A stretch of DNA of 39,031 bases from an uncultured SAR86 cluster bacterium. Its GTDB lineage: Bacteria > Pseudomonadota > Gammaproteobacteria > Magnimaribacterales > D2472. The notes below the pieces were generated by a model. It did not search any database. It was not told where the DNA came from and was given only the letters and a program-made list of their open reading frames with translations. The DNA is taken from positions 1-39,031 of the forward strand of contig CACBGD010000009.1 of assembly GCA_902538705.1 (NCBI GenBank), read 5' to 3'. The first letter of the stretch is position 1; each line of letters starts with the position of its first letter. A program made the translations under genes and the position numbers. This document shows, piece after piece, positions 19,589 to 31,697 of this stretch.

Positions 19589-20124
19589 TTACTAAAATAC
19601 TTAACGTCATAACTCTTTCAAGAATCTTATGTGCAATATTAATTTATTTGATGTTATATTTAGAAAGCAACTACTCTATAGCTTTATTTTTATTTTTTAT
19701 TGCATCTTTTTCTGACTTTCTTGATGGCTATCTTGCAAGAAAAACAAACTCCGAATCCGTATTGGGAGAAATTCTAGATCCTATAGCTGATAAATTATTA
19801 ATTGTATTTGTTCTAATTGGCTTAAGCATAAACCTTGATAGTTTTTTAATTGGCTTTATTGCAGCTGTTATTATTTCTAGAGAGATTTGGGTCGCTGCAC
19901 TGAGAGACATTAACTCAAGAAATAATCAATCTCACAAAACAAAAGTGACTTTTTTAGCAAAGACAAAAACTGCGATGCAGATGTTGTCGATATTAATGTA
20001 TCTATTTGGTCTAATGATTAATAATATGATGGTCCTTTTCTTTGCTGATATTATTCTTATAATCGCCCTTTTAGTTACAATTCAGACAGGTTTTCAATAT
20101 ACAATCTCAACTTTTAAGAAATGA
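19585..20124 (+). CDS. pgsA: CDP-diacylglycerol-glycerol-3-phosphate 3-phosphatidyltransferase
   Basis: The 179-residue inner-membrane enzyme makes phosphatidylglycerol phosphate from CDP-diacylglycerol and glycerol-3-phosphate. The CDP-alcohol phosphatidyltransferase signature D-G-x2-A-R-x8-G-x3-D-x3-D is intact in the segment starting SDFLDGYLARK and ending GEILDPIADK. Four to six hydrophobic helices are visible, including 10-27, 31-46, 73-100 and 130-172. It overlaps uvrC and kdsD by 4 bases each. Confidence 0.94.
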   Translation: MITKILNVITLSRILCAILIYLMLYLESNYSIALFLFFIASFSDFLDGYLARKTNSESVLGEILDPIADKLLIVFVLIGLSINLDSFLIGFIAAVIISREIWVAALRDINSRNNQSHKTKVTFLAKTKTAMQMLSILMYLFGLMINNMMVLFFADIILIIALLVTIQTGFQYTISTFKK

Positions 20125-21086
20125 GTAAAGATAGAAAAACAGTAGATATAGCTAGGCAAGTAATTGACGATGAAGTTGAGGCTCTTATTGGTTTAAAAGA
20201 TTATATTGATGAAAATTTTGAGGAAATTATAAATGTTGTATGTGAATGCAAAGGTCGTCTCATTTTTACTGGCATAGGAAAATCAGGCCATATTAGTAAG
20301 AAAATATCTGCAACCTTATCAAGCACAGGAACAAGCTCTTTTTTTATGCACTCCACGGAGGCTTTTCATGGAGACCTTGGAATGATTCAGAGTGATGATA
20401 TTGTTGTTGCAATAAGTTACTCGGGTGAGACGGAGGATCTCCTAAAAACAATTCCAATTATAAAAAAATTAGGTTGCTTAGTAATAGGCGTTTCAGGAAA
20501 TGATAAATCAACACTATCGAAAATTTCTGACTATCATCAATTGATAAAAGTAGAAAAAGAAGCGTGCCCACTTGATCTTGCTCCAACTTCAAGTGCTACA
20601 GCAACTCTTGTTTGGGGAGATGCGCTGGCAATCTCGTTGATGAACAAAAAAGATTTTAAGCCTGAAGACTTCGCAAAGTCACATCCTGGAGGAACATTAG
20701 GAAAAAAATTACTTCTGTCTGCCAGCGATGTTATGGTTTCCGGAGATGAAATACCAATTATTAATCATGATGAGCTTTCAAAAGATATTATTAAAATAAT
20801 ATCTGAAAAAGGTATGGGAGTAACTTTTGTAAAAGAAAATATGGAAGTTGTTGGTATTATTACTGATGGAGACATAAGGCGCGCAATTGATAAATCAAAT
20901 TACTTTTTTGACATGACAGCTCAAGATTTTATGAGTCAAAACTTCATTTCAGTGGCTCCAGATGATTTAGCATCAAAATGTCTAGACATAATGGCCAAGA
21001 AGAAAATAGGATGCTTGGCTGTTATGCAAGATGATGCCTTGGTTGGTGTTATCAATCAAAAAGATTTAGTTAAATTAGGTATATAA
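20121..21086 (+). CDS. kdsD: Arabinose-5-phosphate isomerase (KdsD/KpsF type)
   Basis: The 321-residue protein has an N-terminal SIS domain (about 35-170; GIGKSGHISKKISATLSSTG, HSTEAFHGDLGMI, SYSGETEDLL) and two CBS domains (about 205-262 and 270-321). It converts ribulose-5-P to arabinose-5-P, the first step toward KDO of lipopolysaccharide. It closes the thirteen-gene run. The next feature, tRNA-Cys, starts 11 bases after its stop, so the tRNA may be transcribed from the same operon. A kpsF/gutQ paralogue is an alternative name, but function would be the same. Confidence 0.94.
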   Translation: MSKDRKTVDIARQVIDDEVEALIGLKDYIDENFEEIINVVCECKGRLIFTGIGKSGHISKKISATLSSTGTSSFFMHSTEAFHGDLGMIQSDDIVVAISYSGETEDLLKTIPIIKKLGCLVIGVSGNDKSTLSKISDYHQLIKVEKEACPLDLAPTSSATATLVWGDALAISLMNKKDFKPEDFAKSHPGGTLGKKLLLSASDVMVSGDEIPIINHDELSKDIIKIISEKGMGVTFVKENMEVVGIITDGDIRRAIDKSNYFFDMTAQDFMSQNFISVAPDDLASKCLDIMAKKKIGCLAVMQDDALVGVINQKDLVKLGI

Positions 21087-21097
21087 TCCTCATAAGC

Positions 21098-21171
21098 GGC
21101 TGGGTGGCAGAGTGGTCATGCAGCGGACTGCAAATCCGTGTACGCCGGTTCGATTCCGGCCTCAGCCTCCA
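21098..21171 (+). tRNA. tRNA-Cys (anticodon GCA)
   Basis: A complete cloverleaf can be folded. The acceptor is GGCTGGG with CTCAGCC (one G-T pair). The anticodon stem GCGGA/TCCGT encloses loop CTGCAAA with anticodon GCA at 21130-21132. The T arm is GCCGG-TTCGATT-CCGGC. Discriminator T is followed by a genome-encoded CCA. A short T run (CTTTTT) follows directly. Confidence 0.96.
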
Positions 21172-21192
21172 CTTTTTAATCTAATAATAAAA

Positions 21193-21222
21193 TTGATTCA
21201 TATTGAAAATTTTCTATATAAT
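21193..21222 (+). promoter_or_regulatory. Sigma-70-like promoter for the kinase cassette
   Basis: TTGATT (21193-21198) and TATAAT (21217-21222) are separated by 18 bases, 25 bases before the kinase start. It would drive the three-gene cassette between the two tRNA genes. Such hexamers arise easily in A/T-rich DNA, but spacing and position are right. Confidence 0.5.
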
Positions 21223-21247
21223 ACGTCTTTTATATGTATATATTTTC

Positions 21248-21661
21248 ATGAAAATTCTTGTTATGGGCCTGCCAGGAAGTGGAAAAACCTATTTAACTGA
21301 AAGACTCCAGCCCCTATTAAAATCTGCTTGGTACAACGCTGATAAAGTAAGGGAAATGGCAAATGACTGGGACTTTTCAGATGAAGGCAGAACAAGACAA
21401 TCAAATAGAATGCGTACATTAGCTGATTTTGAAAAAGAAAATGGCAGATTTGTAATATGTGACTTTGTTTGCCCAACTGTTGAAACTCGAGAAAACTTTA
21501 AAGCTGATATAACAATTTGGATGGATACAATTACAAAAGGTAGATTTGAAGATACTAATAATATTTTTGTAAAGCCAAAAAAAGTTGATTTTCACATAAC
21601 AGAATGGAATGAAAAGAACCACATAAATATTGCACATGATATAAAGGAAAAATATGTTTGA
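21248..21661 (+). CDS. APS-kinase-like P-loop kinase
   Basis: I take ATG 21248 as start (MKILVMGLPGSGKTYL), giving 137 residues. The ATG at 21203 would add 15 hydrophobic residues before the P-loop strand. The Walker A motif GLPGSGKT is at 7-14. NADKVRE, WDFSDEGRTRQSNRM, a GRFVICDF strand and VCPTVETRENF line up in order with the LDGDNVR, LGFSxxDRxxNxRR and ISPYxxxR blocks of adenylylsulfate kinase (CysC). The substrate is therefore probably APS or a similar nucleotide, but the family also contains kinases of unknown substrate, several in marine phages. It overlaps the following nucleotidyltransferase gene by 8 bases. By inference it could supply PAPS for the two sulfotransferases downstream. 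Confidence 0.75.
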   Translation: MKILVMGLPGSGKTYLTERLQPLLKSAWYNADKVREMANDWDFSDEGRTRQSNRMRTLADFEKENGRFVICDFVCPTVETRENFKADITIWMDTITKGRFEDTNNIFVKPKKVDFHITEWNEKNHINIAHDIKEKYV

Positions 21662-22046
21662 TTGGAAAAAACCTACAGTCCAGATGCTTGGAAGATGGCA
21701 ACCATGGCATGATGGTCATCAAGAACTATTTAAAAGATGCTTTGCAAAAACAGGTCAAGTTGCAATTCAAGTTAGAGATGTGCAAGGTGCATCTGGTGGA
21801 GACGGTCAAGAGGATAATCCATTTGACTGGGATCAGGTATGTAAAAATATTGAAATTGGCCTGACCAAAGATGGATTCAGAAGAGGGGTGGAGTATGAAA
21901 TCATGCTTGTTCCAAATATTGTGAATATCACATATGGAAGAGGAGTTGGATATTCATTTGATGAAGAAACTTTTGATGAATCAATTTCATCAATTAGTGC
22001 AACAAAGATAAGAAAAAAGCTTCGTGATGAGGGAAAATTAAAATAA
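21654..22046 (+). CDS. Small HIGH-superfamily nucleotidyltransferase
   Basis: The 130-residue protein has both signatures of the nucleotidylyltransferase alpha/beta-phosphodiesterase superfamily: GRWQPWHDGH at 13-22 (H-x-G-H) and the C-terminal ISATKIR at 114-120. The first resembles the GRFQPFHxGH of nicotinamide-nucleotide adenylyltransferase (NadM) and related small adenylyltransferases. The protein is too short for a full ATP sulfurylase. The ATGTTTGA overlap with the kinase gene indicates coupled synthesis and probably a shared pathway. The transferred nucleotide and acceptor cannot be identified from the sequence. Confidence 0.78.
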   Translation: MFDWKKPTVQMLGRWQPWHDGHQELFKRCFAKTGQVAIQVRDVQGASGGDGQEDNPFDWDQVCKNIEIGLTKDGFRRGVEYEIMLVPNIVNITYGRGVGYSFDEETFDESISSISATKIRKKLRDEGKLK

Positions 22047-22094
22047 TAGTCTTCAATTAGTCTAAAATAGTCATATAAATTTTTAAAATCTTTT

Positions 22095-22940
22095 ATGAAT
22101 GTAGGAATAGTTGGATATGGTTTCGTGGGTAAAGCCCTCGAAAATGGAATAAATGATTCAGTTTCTACCCTTAAAATTGATCCAAAATTAAATACCTCAA
22201 TTAAAGATTTGGTTCCTTTTCAACCAAATATAATTTTTATTTGTGTTCCAACTCCTCTTTGTGAAAATTTATCCCTTGATGCTAGCATCGTTCATTCAGT
22301 TATTGATGAAATTTTGGAACACAACATTGATAGCTTAATAGTCTTAAAAAGCACAATTCTTCCTAACCATTTAATGAAAATAAGCAAAAAGGTAAAAAAC
22401 TTTATATATAATCCAGAATTTTTGCGAGAGAAACATGCTAATGAGGATTTTCTCAAATCAAACTTAATAGTTTTTGGTGGTGAGCAAGAAAATATTAATG
22501 AAATTAAAGATTTTTATATTGAACAAACAAAATGCATTTGCAAAAGTTATGTCGAAACTGATCTTGTCACTGCATCCTTAATTAAATATACAATAAATTC
22601 TTATCTTGCAACAAAGGTATCATTTTTTAATGAGCTAAAAAATGTTTTTGTTAAGGCTAATGCAAATGATTCATGGGATAACTTTATAAGCTATCTCCAG
22701 AAAGACTCACGACTTGGTGATAGCCATATGTCAGTTCCAGGTCATGATGGCAAAGAAGGTTTCGGAGGTGCATGTCTGCCTAAAGATTCCATAGCCTTGC
22801 TTAATTTTTATAAAGAGAATGATTTGGATTTTAAAGTTCTTAAATCTGCGATAGATGTTAACAATATTATTAGAGATAAGTATAATGATGACGCTAGGGA
22901 GCAAGAGCAAAGAATAAATTTTAAAAAAAGGATTACTTAA
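22095..22940 (+). CDS. Short UDP-glucose/GDP-mannose dehydrogenase-family protein
   Basis: The 281-residue protein starts with an NAD-binding motif (VGIVGYGFVGKA, 3-14). It has ICVPTPL, the VLKSTILP strand, IYNPEFLREKHA and, at 222-231, GFGGACLPKD with catalytic Cys227. These are the UDP-glucose 6-dehydrogenase family hallmarks, so oxidation of a nucleotide sugar to a uronate is likely. Normal members have 390-450 residues; this one ends soon after the central helical domain and lacks the C-terminal UDP-binding domain. There is no sign of a frameshift: the stop is followed within 3 bases by tRNA-Leu. It may be a naturally short, phage-type form or a truncated gene. Confidence 0.8.
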   Translation: MNVGIVGYGFVGKALENGINDSVSTLKIDPKLNTSIKDLVPFQPNIIFICVPTPLCENLSLDASIVHSVIDEILEHNIDSLIVLKSTILPNHLMKISKKVKNFIYNPEFLREKHANEDFLKSNLIVFGGEQENINEIKDFYIEQTKCICKSYVETDLVTASLIKYTINSYLATKVSFFNELKNVFVKANANDSWDNFISYLQKDSRLGDSHMSVPGHDGKEGFGGACLPKDSIALLNFYKENDLDFKVLKSAIDVNNIIRDKYNDDAREQEQRINFKKRIT

Positions 22941-22943
22941 TTT

Positions 22944-23031
22944 GCCCAGGTGGTGGAATTGGTAGACACAAGGGATTTAAAATCCCTCGAAGGTTAACTT
23001 CGTGCCGGTTCAAGTCCGGCTCTGGGCACCA
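22944..23031 (+). tRNA. tRNA-Leu (anticodon TAA)
   Basis: The 88-base gene has acceptor GCCCAGG/TCTGGGC (one G-T pair) and anticodon stem AGGGA/TCCCT around loop TTTAAAA with TAA at 22978-22980. It has a long variable arm as expected for leucine tRNA, T arm GCCGG-TTCAAGT-CCGGC, discriminator A and encoded CCA. It starts 3 bases after the dehydrogenase stop and ends 6 bases before the RfaH-like gene. Confidence 0.96.
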
Positions 23032-23037
23032 TATATC

Positions 23038-23517
23038 ATGAAAAAAAATTGGCTTGTCGCAACATATAAAATTAATGAAGTTAGAAAATTAGAAAGTAAT
23101 TTATTAAATCAAAAATTTGAATATTATTTACCAAAAATAATAACAAAAAAGATCAATTCTAATACCAGAGTAGAAGTGCTCTTTCCCGGCTATATTTTTG
23201 TTAATACTAGTTTTAAAAATTACTCAGCACTTAAATATACTTTGGGTATAAGAGATATTATAAAATTTGGAGATAATATCTCCTGCATCTCTGATGAAGA
23301 AATTAAAGCCATGAAAATGGCAGAAGAAGCATCAAAAGTAAATCCAGTAGCTTCAAAAATACAAATAGGGCAAGATGTAATGCTTGCAAAGGGTTCTTTA
23401 ACGGGAAGTATCGTAAAAGTTTGCTCGCTTCCTTCGAAAGAACGAGTTGGCATCCTTCTTTATTTTCTTGGCTCCATGAGAAGAGCCATCATCCAAGAAA
23501 AAGACCTTATCTTTTAA
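23038..23517 (+). CDS. rfaH: RfaH-like (NusG-family) transcription antiterminator
   Basis: The start is ATG 23038 (MKKNWLVATYKINEVRKLE), giving 159 residues; the ATG at 23002 lies within tRNA-Leu. The NGN domain (about 1-95) has W-L-V-A-T-Y-K at the RNA polymerase contact strand, YYLPKI and LFPGYIFVN, the last diagnostic for NusG/RfaH paralogues. The C-terminal KOW-like domain (about 105-159) starts IQIGQDVMLAKGSLTGS. RfaH joins RNA polymerase paused at an ops element and suppresses termination in long surface-polysaccharide operons. Here an ops-like sequence follows 89 bases after its stop, supporting this role over general NusG. The gene is very A/T-rich (8 G or C in bases 23101-23160). Confidence 0.85.
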   Translation: MKKNWLVATYKINEVRKLESNLLNQKFEYYLPKIITKKINSNTRVEVLFPGYIFVNTSFKNYSALKYTLGIRDIIKFGDNISCISDEEIKAMKMAEEASKVNPVASKIQIGQDVMLAKGSLTGSIVKVCSLPSKERVGILLYFLGSMRRAIIQEKDLIF

Positions 23518-28668: not shown

Positions 28669-29496
28669 ATGACAACACCAAATTTCATTTATGTAGGTAC
28701 AGGCAAGGCTGGAAGTACTTGGCTTCATCAGGTTCTTCAAAAGCACCCCGATATTTATGTCACACCTGTGAAAGAGACTAATTATTTTGATCTTAATTAT
28801 GACCGTGGAATTGGTTGGTATGAGAGTTTTTTTCAAGATGCTCAACAAAATCAAATTGTTGGTGAAATTTCTCATCGCTATGTACATAACGACAAAGCAG
28901 TTTCTAGAATTAAGCAAGATCTCGGCGATATAAAGATTTTAGCTTTTTTTAGAGAACCCTCTGGATATTTCTTATCTGATTATTTGTTTACCATTCGTAA
29001 TGGCCGTTTTTCAGGTACGATCGAGGATTATGCGGATAATGGGTTTGATTGGGATGATATATTGTATGCTGATCTTATCAGACCTTATGTAGAAACATTT
29101 TCAAAAGAAAATGTCATGATTGCTAACTTCAAAGATATTGGTGGCGATCCTGAGACTCTTCTCAAAAAAATCTCCAATTTTCTTGCCATATCTGATTTTC
29201 CAAGTGATGCGGTTAATATAGGTAAGGTTAACGCAGCACAAAGACCAAGAAATAAAACTCTTGCAAGAATAGTTAATATCACTTCAAAAGCGCTAAAGAG
29301 AAGAGGTGGACAGCGAATAATTGCTGCCGTTAAGTACAACCGCTTTGTGCAGGGATTGCTGTATAAAAATCTCAATACGAAGCCTGATATTCCATCAGAG
29401 TTAAAAGAAAGAATAATTAGTCATTCACTTGATGATATTAAATGGTTAGACAGTGTTTTTAAAACAAATTTTGAAGAGGTTTGGTTTAAATTATGA
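28669..29496 (+). CDS. PAPS-dependent sulfotransferase (first)
   Basis: The 275-residue protein has the 5'-phosphosulfate-binding loop VGTGKAGSTW at 9-18. The 3'-phosphate motif AFFREPSGYFLSDY follows, with Arg95 and Ser103 in the canonical R-x7-S spacing. KETNYF (35-40) matches the K-E-x-x-Y/F-F block of heparan-sulfate-type carbohydrate sulfotransferases. AAGGA-like TAAGGA precedes the ATG by 9 bases. It probably sulfates a sugar of the repeat unit or polymer; acceptor unknown. No signal peptide is seen, so it acts in the cytoplasm. Confidence 0.87.
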   Translation: MTTPNFIYVGTGKAGSTWLHQVLQKHPDIYVTPVKETNYFDLNYDRGIGWYESFFQDAQQNQIVGEISHRYVHNDKAVSRIKQDLGDIKILAFFREPSGYFLSDYLFTIRNGRFSGTIEDYADNGFDWDDILYADLIRPYVETFSKENVMIANFKDIGGDPETLLKKISNFLAISDFPSDAVNIGKVNAAQRPRNKTLARIVNITSKALKRRGGQRIIAAVKYNRFVQGLLYKNLNTKPDIPSELKERIISHSLDDIKWLDSVFKTNFEEVWFKL

Positions 29497-30785: not shown

Positions 30786-31697
30786 ATGATACCAAATCTT
30801 TTTATTGTGGGTGCGCCAAAATGTGGCACATCTGCCATTGCATATTACTTATCAGAGCATCCAAATGCTTTGATCTCAAGCCCTAAAGAGCCTTTCTTTT
30901 GGAGTGACGACATTAAAGCAAGTGGGCACGAATTGCGCCCATGCTCATTGGATGAATACTTAAATTTGTTTAAGGATGCAAATCCTAAGCAACATTCTAT
31001 CCTTGGTGAGGGTAGCACCAGTTATCTTAGATCTTTGGTAGCAGTTCCGAATATCTTAAAGTTTAATCCTGATGCTAAATTTATTGTAATGCTTCGTAAT
31101 CCTCTTGATGTCGTTCAGGCATATCATATGGAACAAGTTTATCTTATGCGTGAAGACCAGATTGACTTCGCTCAAGCCTGGGCGCTCCAGAAAAAGAGGG
31201 AAGCAGGGTTAAATATTCCTAAAAATGCGAAAGGTTCAGATCATGTTTTATACCGAAAAATTGCTTCATTTCACAACCAAGTTCAGAGACTACTTGAAAT
31301 TGTTCCCAGGGATCAGGTGAAGATAATCATATTTGACGACTTTAAAGAGAATTGTGAAAAAGAGTACAAGTCAGTTTTACGCTTCCTAAATCTTGAAGAT
31401 GACAAAAGAGACAATTTTGAGCCTATAAACTCTGCTCATGCTCAAAGGTGGCCACTCTTTGCTAAGCTCATCCTATACCCACCAAGGCCGCTACAAATTC
31501 CTTTTAGAAAATTAAGAAGATTTCTTATTGATAATGATTTTAAGTTTGTAAATTGGGTCAAGAAAAAGCTAAATGTAAAAAAAAATAGAATATCCATTGA
31601 TGAGGACTTAGAGAGTGAAATTAAAGAATATTTTAAAACTGATATAGATAATCTCGGAACACTTCTCGATAGGGATTTAAGTTATTGGTATAAATGA
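30786..31697 (+). CDS. PAPS-dependent sulfotransferase (second)
   Basis: The 303-residue protein starts IPNLFIVGAPKCGTSAIAY, a clear 5'-phosphosulfate loop (8-16). KEPFFW (34-39) is the usual K-E-x-x-F/Y-F block. The 3'-phosphate motif is MLRNPLDVVQAYHM with Arg104, but the position of the canonical serine eight residues later is Ala112. Activity may thus be altered, or a neighbouring residue may substitute. It resembles heparan-type sulfotransferase domains and is only distantly similar to the first sulfotransferase, so two different positions or substrates are likely. 46 bases separate it from the polymerase gene. Confidence 0.86.
   Translation: MIPNLFIVGAPKCGTSAIAYYLSEHPNALISSPKEPFFWSDDIKASGHELRPCSLDEYLNLFKDANPKQHSILGEGSTSYLRSLVAVPNILKFNPDAKFIVMLRNPLDVVQAYHMEQVYLMREDQIDFAQAWALQKKREAGLNIPKNAKGSDHVLYRKIASFHNQVQRLLEIVPRDQVKIIIFDDFKENCEKEYKSVLRFLNLEDDKRDNFEPINSAHAQRWPLFAKLILYPPRPLQIPFRKLRRFLIDNDFKFVNWVKKKLNVKKNRISIDEDLESEIKEYFKTDIDNLGTLLDRDLSYWYK

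Follow-up and report, generated by a model that had tools for sequence, protein, structure and literature searches.

In the human 3'-phosphoadenosine 5'-phosphosulfate (PAPS) synthases (PAPSS), the kinase domain is followed by the ATP-sulfurylase part. The 3'-phosphoadenosine 5'-phosphate (PAP) left by sulfotransferases is removed by the enzyme CysQ, and the nicotinamide mononucleotide (NMN) adenylyltransferases (NMNAT) and phosphopantetheine adenylyltransferases (PPAT) transfer AMP from ATP. For a sulfated capsule of a marine Vibrio, PAPS genes (cysNDC in that case) and sulfotransferase genes residing in one cluster are named as a hallmark (PMC11641403). The stretch of DNA analyzed here, referred to as the window, comprises 39,031 nt of contig CACBGD010000009.1 from an uncultured SAR86 cluster bacterium. 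Between its genes for tRNA-Cys and tRNA-Leu, it encodes a small kinase and a small nucleotidyltransferase (NTase), together referred to as the pair, and a dehydrogenase (Table 1). The pair probably represents a miniature two-protein PAPS synthase occupying an exchange slot between the two tRNA genes. This link to sulfation was absent from a preliminary description of the locus.

The kinase exceeded the Pfam cut-off for the family APS_kinase (PF01583, 32.1 bits versus 21.1), and the top matches of its profile in the PDB were adenosine 5'-phosphosulfate (APS) kinases and the kinase domains of PAPSS1/2. Its AlphaFold2 model (predicted local distance difference test score, pLDDT, 95.8) was superimposed on the APS kinase 7yq0 with a Z score of 18.5 and a root mean square deviation of 1.8 over 135 residues. 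Structural ranks 1 to 28 (Z 18.5 to 15.8) were taken by 26 APS-kinase, PAPS-synthetase or ATP sulfurylase (Sat)/APS-kinase entries and by two fungal ATP sulfurylases, with gluconate kinase beginning after rank 28 (Z 15.8). Both fungal enzymes were matched only in residues 397-570, which we take to be their APS-kinase-like C-terminal domain. The window kinase features the P-loop GLPGSGKT. In CysC of M. tuberculosis, the residues Asp480, Arg483, Phe492, and Arg497 contact APS (PMC4373884). Based on the PDB profile alignment and residue spacing, they correspond to D32, R35, F43, and R48 of the kinase; all four were invariant throughout the 50 kinases aligned, with viral ones included. The fold and the invariant APS-binding residues support the prediction that the protein is a lid-shortened APS kinase phosphorylating APS.

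The NTase matched no Pfam family, PF01747 (ATP sulfurylase) included. Three blocks, namely GRxQPxHxGH, GRGVGY, and ISATKIR, were conserved in 73 sequences, and the model of the protein (pLDDT 87.6) showed the fold of NMNAT and PPAT enzymes (Z 10.6-10.8 over 113-117 residues). The Sat/APS kinase of Aquifex (2gks) was recovered as a Foldseek match (rank 12, E 0.11, probability 0.69). No Sat chain was present among the 50 structural matches listed for the NTase, which says nothing against a shared fold. From the genomic context and the lack of alternatives, we infer that the NTase transfers AMP to sulfate and would thus act as a minimal ATP sulfurylase.

The context was evaluated using 101 genomes from the order to which the window belongs; the counts for these genomes are free of duplicates. 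Searches for PF01747 and CysD, in which the controls were detected, yielded PF01747 in 1 of the 101 genomes (1 of 40 at ≥90% completeness) and CysD above the cut-off in none of the 101. APS kinases (PF01583) exceeded the cut-off in 68 genomes, and in 67 of these the gene adjoins that of the NTase, as compared by eye. Sulfotransferases of PF13469 were detected in 72 of the 101 genomes; the genome containing the window (0.998 Mb, 80% complete) accounts for six matches. The pair and PF13469 occurred together in 66 genomes, the pair without PF13469 in 3, PF13469 without the pair in 6, and neither of them in 26 (Fisher odds ratio 95, p = 3e-15). Within the family f2, a PF13469 match resides directly beside the kinase gene in 12 of 13 pair-bearing genomes, a count likewise free of duplicates; in one of them (G061), the NTase is encoded elsewhere.

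In the comparison of loci, neighboring families were defined as BLAST clusters, one representative of each being compared with Pfam or NCBIfam. Of 15 loci from marine alphaproteobacteria, nine have a member of a CysQ family directly upstream of the pair and three more at a distance of 3.6 kb; the representative of this family scored 285 bits against a cut-off of 228.8. AprA and AprB families, with representatives above the cut-off, were located within 6 kb of the pair in 17 of 32 SAR11 and alphaproteobacterial loci. PF01747 was detected in 2 of the 29 pair-bearing SAR11 and alphaproteobacterial genomes, for which completeness values were not given, and was not found in the other 27. For Ca. 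P. ubique, the presence of AprBA and the lack of both sat and cysDNC have been reported (PMC5069961).

Among the 13 genomes of family f4, G075 is the only one bearing the pair. Its slot contains the pair, a gene for a small membrane protein of the DUF2061 type, and a CysQ-like gene (222.7 bits, just below 228.8), on the other strand a sulfotransferase (PF00685, 53.4 bits, cut-off 22) and a flippase, and then an epimerase and a dehydrogenase. In G002, the NTase gene is followed by a weak sulfotransferase-like open reading frame (ORF) with 18.8 bits for PF00685, below the cut-off of 22. The DUF2061 protein (L065 8985-9209, minus strand, in G075) is possibly part of the sulfate system; a cluster of this type, of which one member was compared, was also observed near the pair in 14 of 147 viral loci (for example L252 3798-4040).

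Given these sulfation-related neighbors and the gap left by Sat and CysD, sulfate was proposed as the acceptor of the NTase. The 130-residue NTase would convert ATP and sulfate to APS and pyrophosphate (the ATP-sulfurylase step), and the 137-residue kinase, as predicted from its fold and invariant residues, would phosphorylate the 3'-OH of APS to yield PAPS (the APS-kinase step). Judging from families and position, sulfotransferases, two of which are encoded in the adjoining polysaccharide locus, would spend PAPS on surface glycans. It appears fairly probable that the NTase represents a third, so far unrecognized kind of ATP sulfurylase outside Sat and CysDN, that it forms with the short-lidded APS kinase the smallest PAPS synthase known to us (267 residues in two proteins), and that this enzyme supplies activated sulfate to ocean bacteria with streamlined genomes (SAR86, SAR11, and marine alphaproteobacteria), most of which yielded no match to the classical enzyme, and to many marine T4-like phages. 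Among open-access titles and abstract openings, to which the search extended (full texts, subscription papers, and preprints being outside it), none describes the pair as sulfate activation.

Several results weigh against the pair being a PAPS synthase. The kinase reached 28.2 bits with the NCBIfam apsK equivalog model, the cut-off being 138.7; by its sequence, it is a shortened APS-kinase relative and not a standard apsK product. By sequence, the nearest proteins to the NTase are NMN adenylyltransferases (1f9a, E 8.6e-8), and none of its 17 PDB profile matches is a Sat. Comparison with six Sats by hhalign aligned only the ISATxxR end, with a probability of 11%, and direct homology of the NTase to Sat was rejected on these grounds. 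Three genomes harbor the pair without PF13469 (G012, G029, and G075) and six PF13469 without the pair (G018, G025, G028, G035, G038, and G097, with G028 being 92% complete). Both are missing from all 13 genomes of family f3, and in family f4 PF13469 is missing from all 13 and the pair from 12, indicating that the association of the pair with sulfotransferases partly reflects shared ancestry. In 18 SAR86 loci outside the slot, some of them duplicates, a gene family encoding 367 aa (L133 6495-7595) overlaps or abuts the start of the kinase gene; its representative matched no Pfam or NCBIfam model, appeared methyltransferase-like by eye, and has no link to sulfation. Genome G061 possesses a canonical Sat and nevertheless retains the NTase, at a place separate from the kinase. 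Among 50 pair-bearing viral records, many of which are fragments, PF13469 was detected in only one and a PAPS reductase above the cut-off in none, so that a sulfotransferase or PAPS-reductase partner in phages was discarded and what phages would do with PAPS is left unexplained. A motif scan recovered a motif like that of sulfotransferase 2 in 2 of 147 viral loci.

The Sat of G061 is itself unusual. It is encoded as a 717-aa fusion of a pyruvate kinase barrel (PF00224) with a complete ATP sulfurylase (PF14306 and PF01747) on contig C7 (L325 1451-3604), represents the sole PF01747 match in the 101 genomes, and adjoins a gene with weak similarity to sulfotransferases, which scored 22.1 bits for PF00685 at a cut-off of 22.

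Regarding other functions of the pair, a TagD- or HldE-like role in producing a nucleotide-activated substituent for the surface polysaccharide (for instance, an alcohol, phosphonate, or sugar linked to ADP or CDP) is unlikely, even though the pair adjoins a polysaccharide locus in the window and HxGH enzymes of such size include cytidylyltransferases. The viral neighborhoods also fit this idea, being composed of sugar genes, those of the Kdo pathway among them: a short dehydrogenase (27 of 147 loci), KdsA (representative above the cut-off), a KdsB-like protein (below its curated cut-offs), an epimerase, and a carbamoyltransferase. In most of the SAR86 genomes read, however, the pair is not located beside this polysaccharide locus, the kinase is of the APS-kinase type, and the links to CysQ, AprBA, and sulfotransferases would have no explanation.

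A unit for NAD salvage, in which the kinase phosphorylates nicotinamide riboside and the NTase adenylylates NMN, appears quite unlikely. NadR combines the same two types of activity, and the NTase shows both its best profile match and a structural Z score of 10.6 to NMN adenylyltransferases. Nevertheless, its scores were far from the NadM cut-offs (TIGR01527, 20.0 versus 181.2 bits; NF002243, 22.3 versus 127 bits), and the NMNAT chains listed exceed it in length by approximately 40 residues. The kinase resembles APS kinases in fold and sequence, with invariant phosphosulfate-binding arginines, and the recurrent neighbors are sulfotransferases, CysQ, and AprBA.

The kinase could also produce PAPS from APS of another source, either AprBA running toward APS or an unrecognized sulfurylase, while the NTase serves a different function. 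The vicinity of AprA and AprB in more than half of the SAR11 and alphaproteobacterial loci and the unlinked genes of G061 speak for this assumption, which is considered most unlikely in view of the tight linkage of the two genes. In 78 of 80 loci of the genome-contig set, both are encoded on one strand at a distance of no more than 60 bp; SAR86 loci in this set partly derive from the same contigs as the 101 genomes, so that locus counts contain duplicates. The same arrangement was observed in 102 of 147 viral loci (34 had the genes further apart, and 11 showed no visible kinase), and both isolate phages read encode a fusion. The near-absence of PF01747 and CysD from the SAR86-order genomes likewise argues against it.

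A coenzyme A (CoA)-synthase logic, i.e., a PPAT combined with a kinase for the ribose 3'-OH, can be dismissed as scarcely credible: CoA and PAPS pathways both adenylylate and then phosphorylate the 3'-OH, and PPAT gave the top structural Z score of the NTase (10.8, tied with NMNAT), but the kinase matched APS kinases, with no dephospho-CoA kinase among the matches listed (which alone excludes nothing), and 32 of the 101 genomes (18 of 40 at ≥90% completeness) had no NTase match, a poor fit for an essential cofactor.

The surroundings of the pair were compared across the order. The tRNA-Cys and tRNA-Leu genes, the NTase, and the dehydrogenase were mapped in the 101 genomes, and 60 stretches from 49 genomes were read. 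The best-matching tRNA genes were located on one contig and strand in 70 genomes, 59 of which keep the interval from tRNA-Cys to tRNA-Leu within 25 kb, indicating that the bracket of two tRNA genes is not due to chance. These 59 slots were distinguished into the following groups: 25 empty ones (300 bp or less), 18 containing the dehydrogenase without the pair, 3 the pair alone, 4 both (G000, G002, G006, and G075; in G002, about 17 kb lie between them), and 9 with other content, among it galU-like genes recognized by eye (G033 and G062) and an epimerase-like gene (G064). In G020, the slot (L045) spans 11.9 kb and holds genes resembling, by eye, NeuA/NeuB-type sugar genes and reductases, a methyltransferase-domain gene, and then the pair. 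Regarding the 69 pair-bearing genomes, the pair resides in the slot in seven and just left of tRNA-Cys in six; in the remaining genomes, it is located elsewhere or could not be placed relative to the tRNA genes.

In the window's genus, four genomes carry the pair after tRNA-Cys, whereas six carry a divergent pair (58-67% identical to that of the window) before it, directly after kdsD; no genome of this genus showed two NTase matches. Similarity of the pair was decoupled from that of the core protein UvrC. Compared to the window, G005 shared 97% identity for UvrC, 60% for the kinase, and 65% for the NTase, whereas the corresponding values for G006 were 64%, 86%, and 84%; for G002, they were 89% (partial protein), 79%, and 85%. 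The tRNA-Cys gene of G002 was only 89% identical to that of the window, versus 99-100% in the nine remaining members of this genus, including that of the window itself, and looks as though it had been carried along with the pair.

These incongruent identities and the variable content, with intervals ranging from empty to over 10 kb, indicate that the interval very likely serves as an exchange slot. It flanks the SAR86 surface-polysaccharide locus on the left side and appears to operate without an integrase. Its content is swapped among genomes, presumably by homologous recombination through the tRNA genes. A recombination-type exchange spot had been suggested in the preliminary description, as had the absence of an integrase and of attachment repeats, and both statements are supported. 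An integrase/att-type element was rejected, since no integrase was encoded by the part of the window ORFs scanned, no direct repeat exceeded 21 nt, and none linked the tRNA ends. The same three genes, conserved in this place throughout the clade and inherited vertically, were not seen in the interval comparison.

A single three-gene cassette, as originally described, has to be abandoned: the pair and the dehydrogenase occur separately among the 59 slots and are two independent modules. The dehydrogenase exceeded the cut-offs for the N-terminal NAD-binding and central domains of the UDP-glucose/GDP-mannose family (PF03721, 57.3 bits; PF00984, 64.7 bits), had no Pfam match for the C-terminal domain, and scored 146.4 bits with TIGR03026, below the cut-off of 189.8. 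The protein had been introduced as a short dehydrogenase; by its domain matches, it is a nucleotide-sugar dehydrogenase lacking the C-terminal domain and not a member of the short-chain dehydrogenases/reductases. Relatives inside the slot or adjacent to it shared 48-58% identity in 18 other genomes and 39-41% in five more. The enzyme is a separate occupant of the slot outside the sulfate module and likely oxidizes nucleotide sugars for the coat polysaccharide.

All three protein types had been stated to occur in marine phages, and they do occur in marine phages or viral contigs, with viral dehydrogenase relatives of up to 44% identity. At least 556 of 599 candidate stretches from viral contigs were confirmed by tblastn to contain the NTase, and the viral pair loci looked T4-like by eye, featuring RecA/UvsX-, helicase-, and ThyX-like neighbors. 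Five of 50,697 phage records matched each half of the pair, and canonical Sat had no match in these records. PHROG 10255 represents the fused phage form, with the kinase first and a length of 230-245 aa, and the window NTase matched its C-terminal half.

Phylogenetic placement was deduced from a midpoint-rooted tree of 206 tips based on concatenated kinase and NTase proteins. A single clade (support 0.83) contained 75 of 76 SAR86-type sequences and excluded all 99 viral as well as 26 of 29 SAR11 and alphaproteobacterial sequences; the SAR86-type set was defined by our own selection of loci, among them L099, L104, and L107, which are labeled otherwise in their records. Three SAR11 sequences paired with isolate phages. 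The best relatives of the window NTase were SAR86 proteins with up to 88% identity, the best viral one reaching 67%, and NTases 74-88% identical to it belong to SAR86 or gammaproteobacterial records, except for the three loci just named. A phage source of the window copy, considered in the preliminary description, finds no support in these results, and a recent donor among the phages sampled was rejected.

Further observations concern individual loci. The pair of L148 (MED685, a contig of a gammaproteobacterial metagenome-assembled genome) was placed inside the viral clade, representing either a viral contig in this genome or a transfer. A protein of about 100 aa, without Pfam match for the one member compared, is encoded in 41 viral loci (including L320 7287-7586), mostly directly 5' of the kinase gene. 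A 116-aa protein, also without Pfam match for the one compared (e.g., L158 8397-8744, minus strand), was found in 18 SAR11 and alphaproteobacterial loci, in 14 of which it is located 5-7 bp after the NTase gene on the opposite strand.

The arrangement of the window is summarized in Table 1. The tRNA genes were called with ARAGORN, which detected exactly two, both on the plus strand. The ORF coordinates agree with the original statement that three genes lie exactly between them. All three are on the plus strand; the kdsD stop is 11 bp 5' of tRNA-Cys, the kinase and NTase genes overlap by 8 bp, and the dehydrogenase gene ends 3 bp short of tRNA-Leu. Kinase length was counted from the ATG at 21248, the mechanical ORF beginning with TTG at 21203. 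A conserved operon was said to meet a variable locus here, and this was observed as well: the left flank reads pgi-uvrC-pgsA-kdsD, with kdsD as its final gene (338 bits with the KdsD equivalog model, below the cut-off of 505). On the right, the RfaH/UpxY-like gene opens the variable polysaccharide locus, followed by genes for a winged helix-turn-helix protein, Wzz, and polysaccharide functions (including the two sulfotransferases) and then by infC-rplT-pheS. Close to their N-termini, sulfotransferases 1 and 2 feature VGTGKAGSTWL and VGAPKCGTSAI, respectively. As for the promoter postulated for the three genes, a candidate is present and ends 26 bp 5' of the kinase start codon. However, the region contained no more promoter-like matches than shuffled sequences (11 found, 13.6 expected), and an own promoter of the kinase was therefore not retained.

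Table 1. Features of the window in and around the tRNA-Cys/tRNA-Leu slot.
Feature	Position (nt)	Strand	Evidence
kdsD (arabinose-5-phosphate isomerase)	20121-21086	+	SIS and CBS domains; TIGR00393 314 bits, above cut-off 203.7
tRNA-Cys(GCA), left border of slot	21098-21171	+	ARAGORN; match in 74 of 101 genomes including the window's own
Candidate sigma-70-like promoter TTGATT-18-TATAAT, upstream of kinase	21193-21222	+	Pattern match 10/12
kin, APS-kinase-type P-loop kinase, 137 aa, shortened lid	21248-21661	+	PF01583 above cut-off
NTase, HxGH adenylyltransferase, 130 aa	21654-22046	+	Conserved blocks; NMNAT/PPAT fold; C-terminal half of PHROG 10255
Short UDP-glucose/GDP-mannose-type dehydrogenase, 281 aa	22095-22940	+	PF03721 and PF00984
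tRNA-Leu(TAA), right border of slot	22944-23031	+	ARAGORN; match in 98 of 101 genomes, a count that also covers weak hits to other tRNA-Leu genes
RfaH/UpxY-like NusG paralogue	23038-23517	+	PF02357; TIGR01955 67 bits, below cut-off 144.5
Sulfotransferase 1, predicted PAPS user	28669-29496	+	PF00685 38.7 bits and PF13469 32.8 bits, both above cut-off
Sulfotransferase 2, predicted PAPS user	30786-31697	+	PF13469 53.1 bits and PF00685 39.9 bits, both above cut-off

If the proposed function applies, it would explain how streamlined marine bacteria in which neither Sat nor CysD was detected still sulfate glycans or proteins, and a gene pair that is frequent among marine viral contigs would be assigned a function. 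It would also suggest which protein could act as the ATP sulfurylase that AprBA otherwise lacks as a partner in SAR11, for which the absence of sat has been published (PMC5069961). The slot illustrates how members of SAR86 swap functions of the surface coat at a site flanked by tRNA genes, where no integrase was apparent.

Compared to known systems, the pair shares with metazoan PAPSS1/2 the proposed activities and, in the phage-fused PHROG 10255, the order of kinase and adenylyltransferase; human APS-kinase domains aligned with the kinase at Z 15.5-17.9. In contrast, the metazoan chain comprises about 590-630 residues, the fused phage form 230-245, the NTase is not of the Sat family by profile, and the bacterial pair consists of two overlapping genes. 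The two-step chemistry proposed for the pair is that of Sat-CysC and CysDN-CysC, whose proteins are much larger and whose sulfurylases are virtually missing from the genomes compared (PF01747 in 1 and CysD in 0 of 101). With NadM/NMNAT and PPAT of the HxGH superfamily, the NTase has the fold and the HxGH and ISxTxxR motifs in common, but it is shorter and differs in its own GRGVGY block, its sulfation-related neighbors, and its APS-kinase-type partner. Both domains recur in PHROG 10255, with records from Stenotrophomonas, Xanthomonas, and Clavibacter phages at 35-49% identity by half; there, they are fused instead of being encoded by two genes, and the family is named only 'kinase', with no substrate given. 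Finally, the slot resembles tRNA-bordered flexible genomic islands in its variable content, its conserved tRNA borders, and the surface-polysaccharide locus behind it, whereas it differs from them by the absence of a detected integrase or att repeat and by exchanges between two tRNA genes that involve anything from a single gene to over 10 kb.

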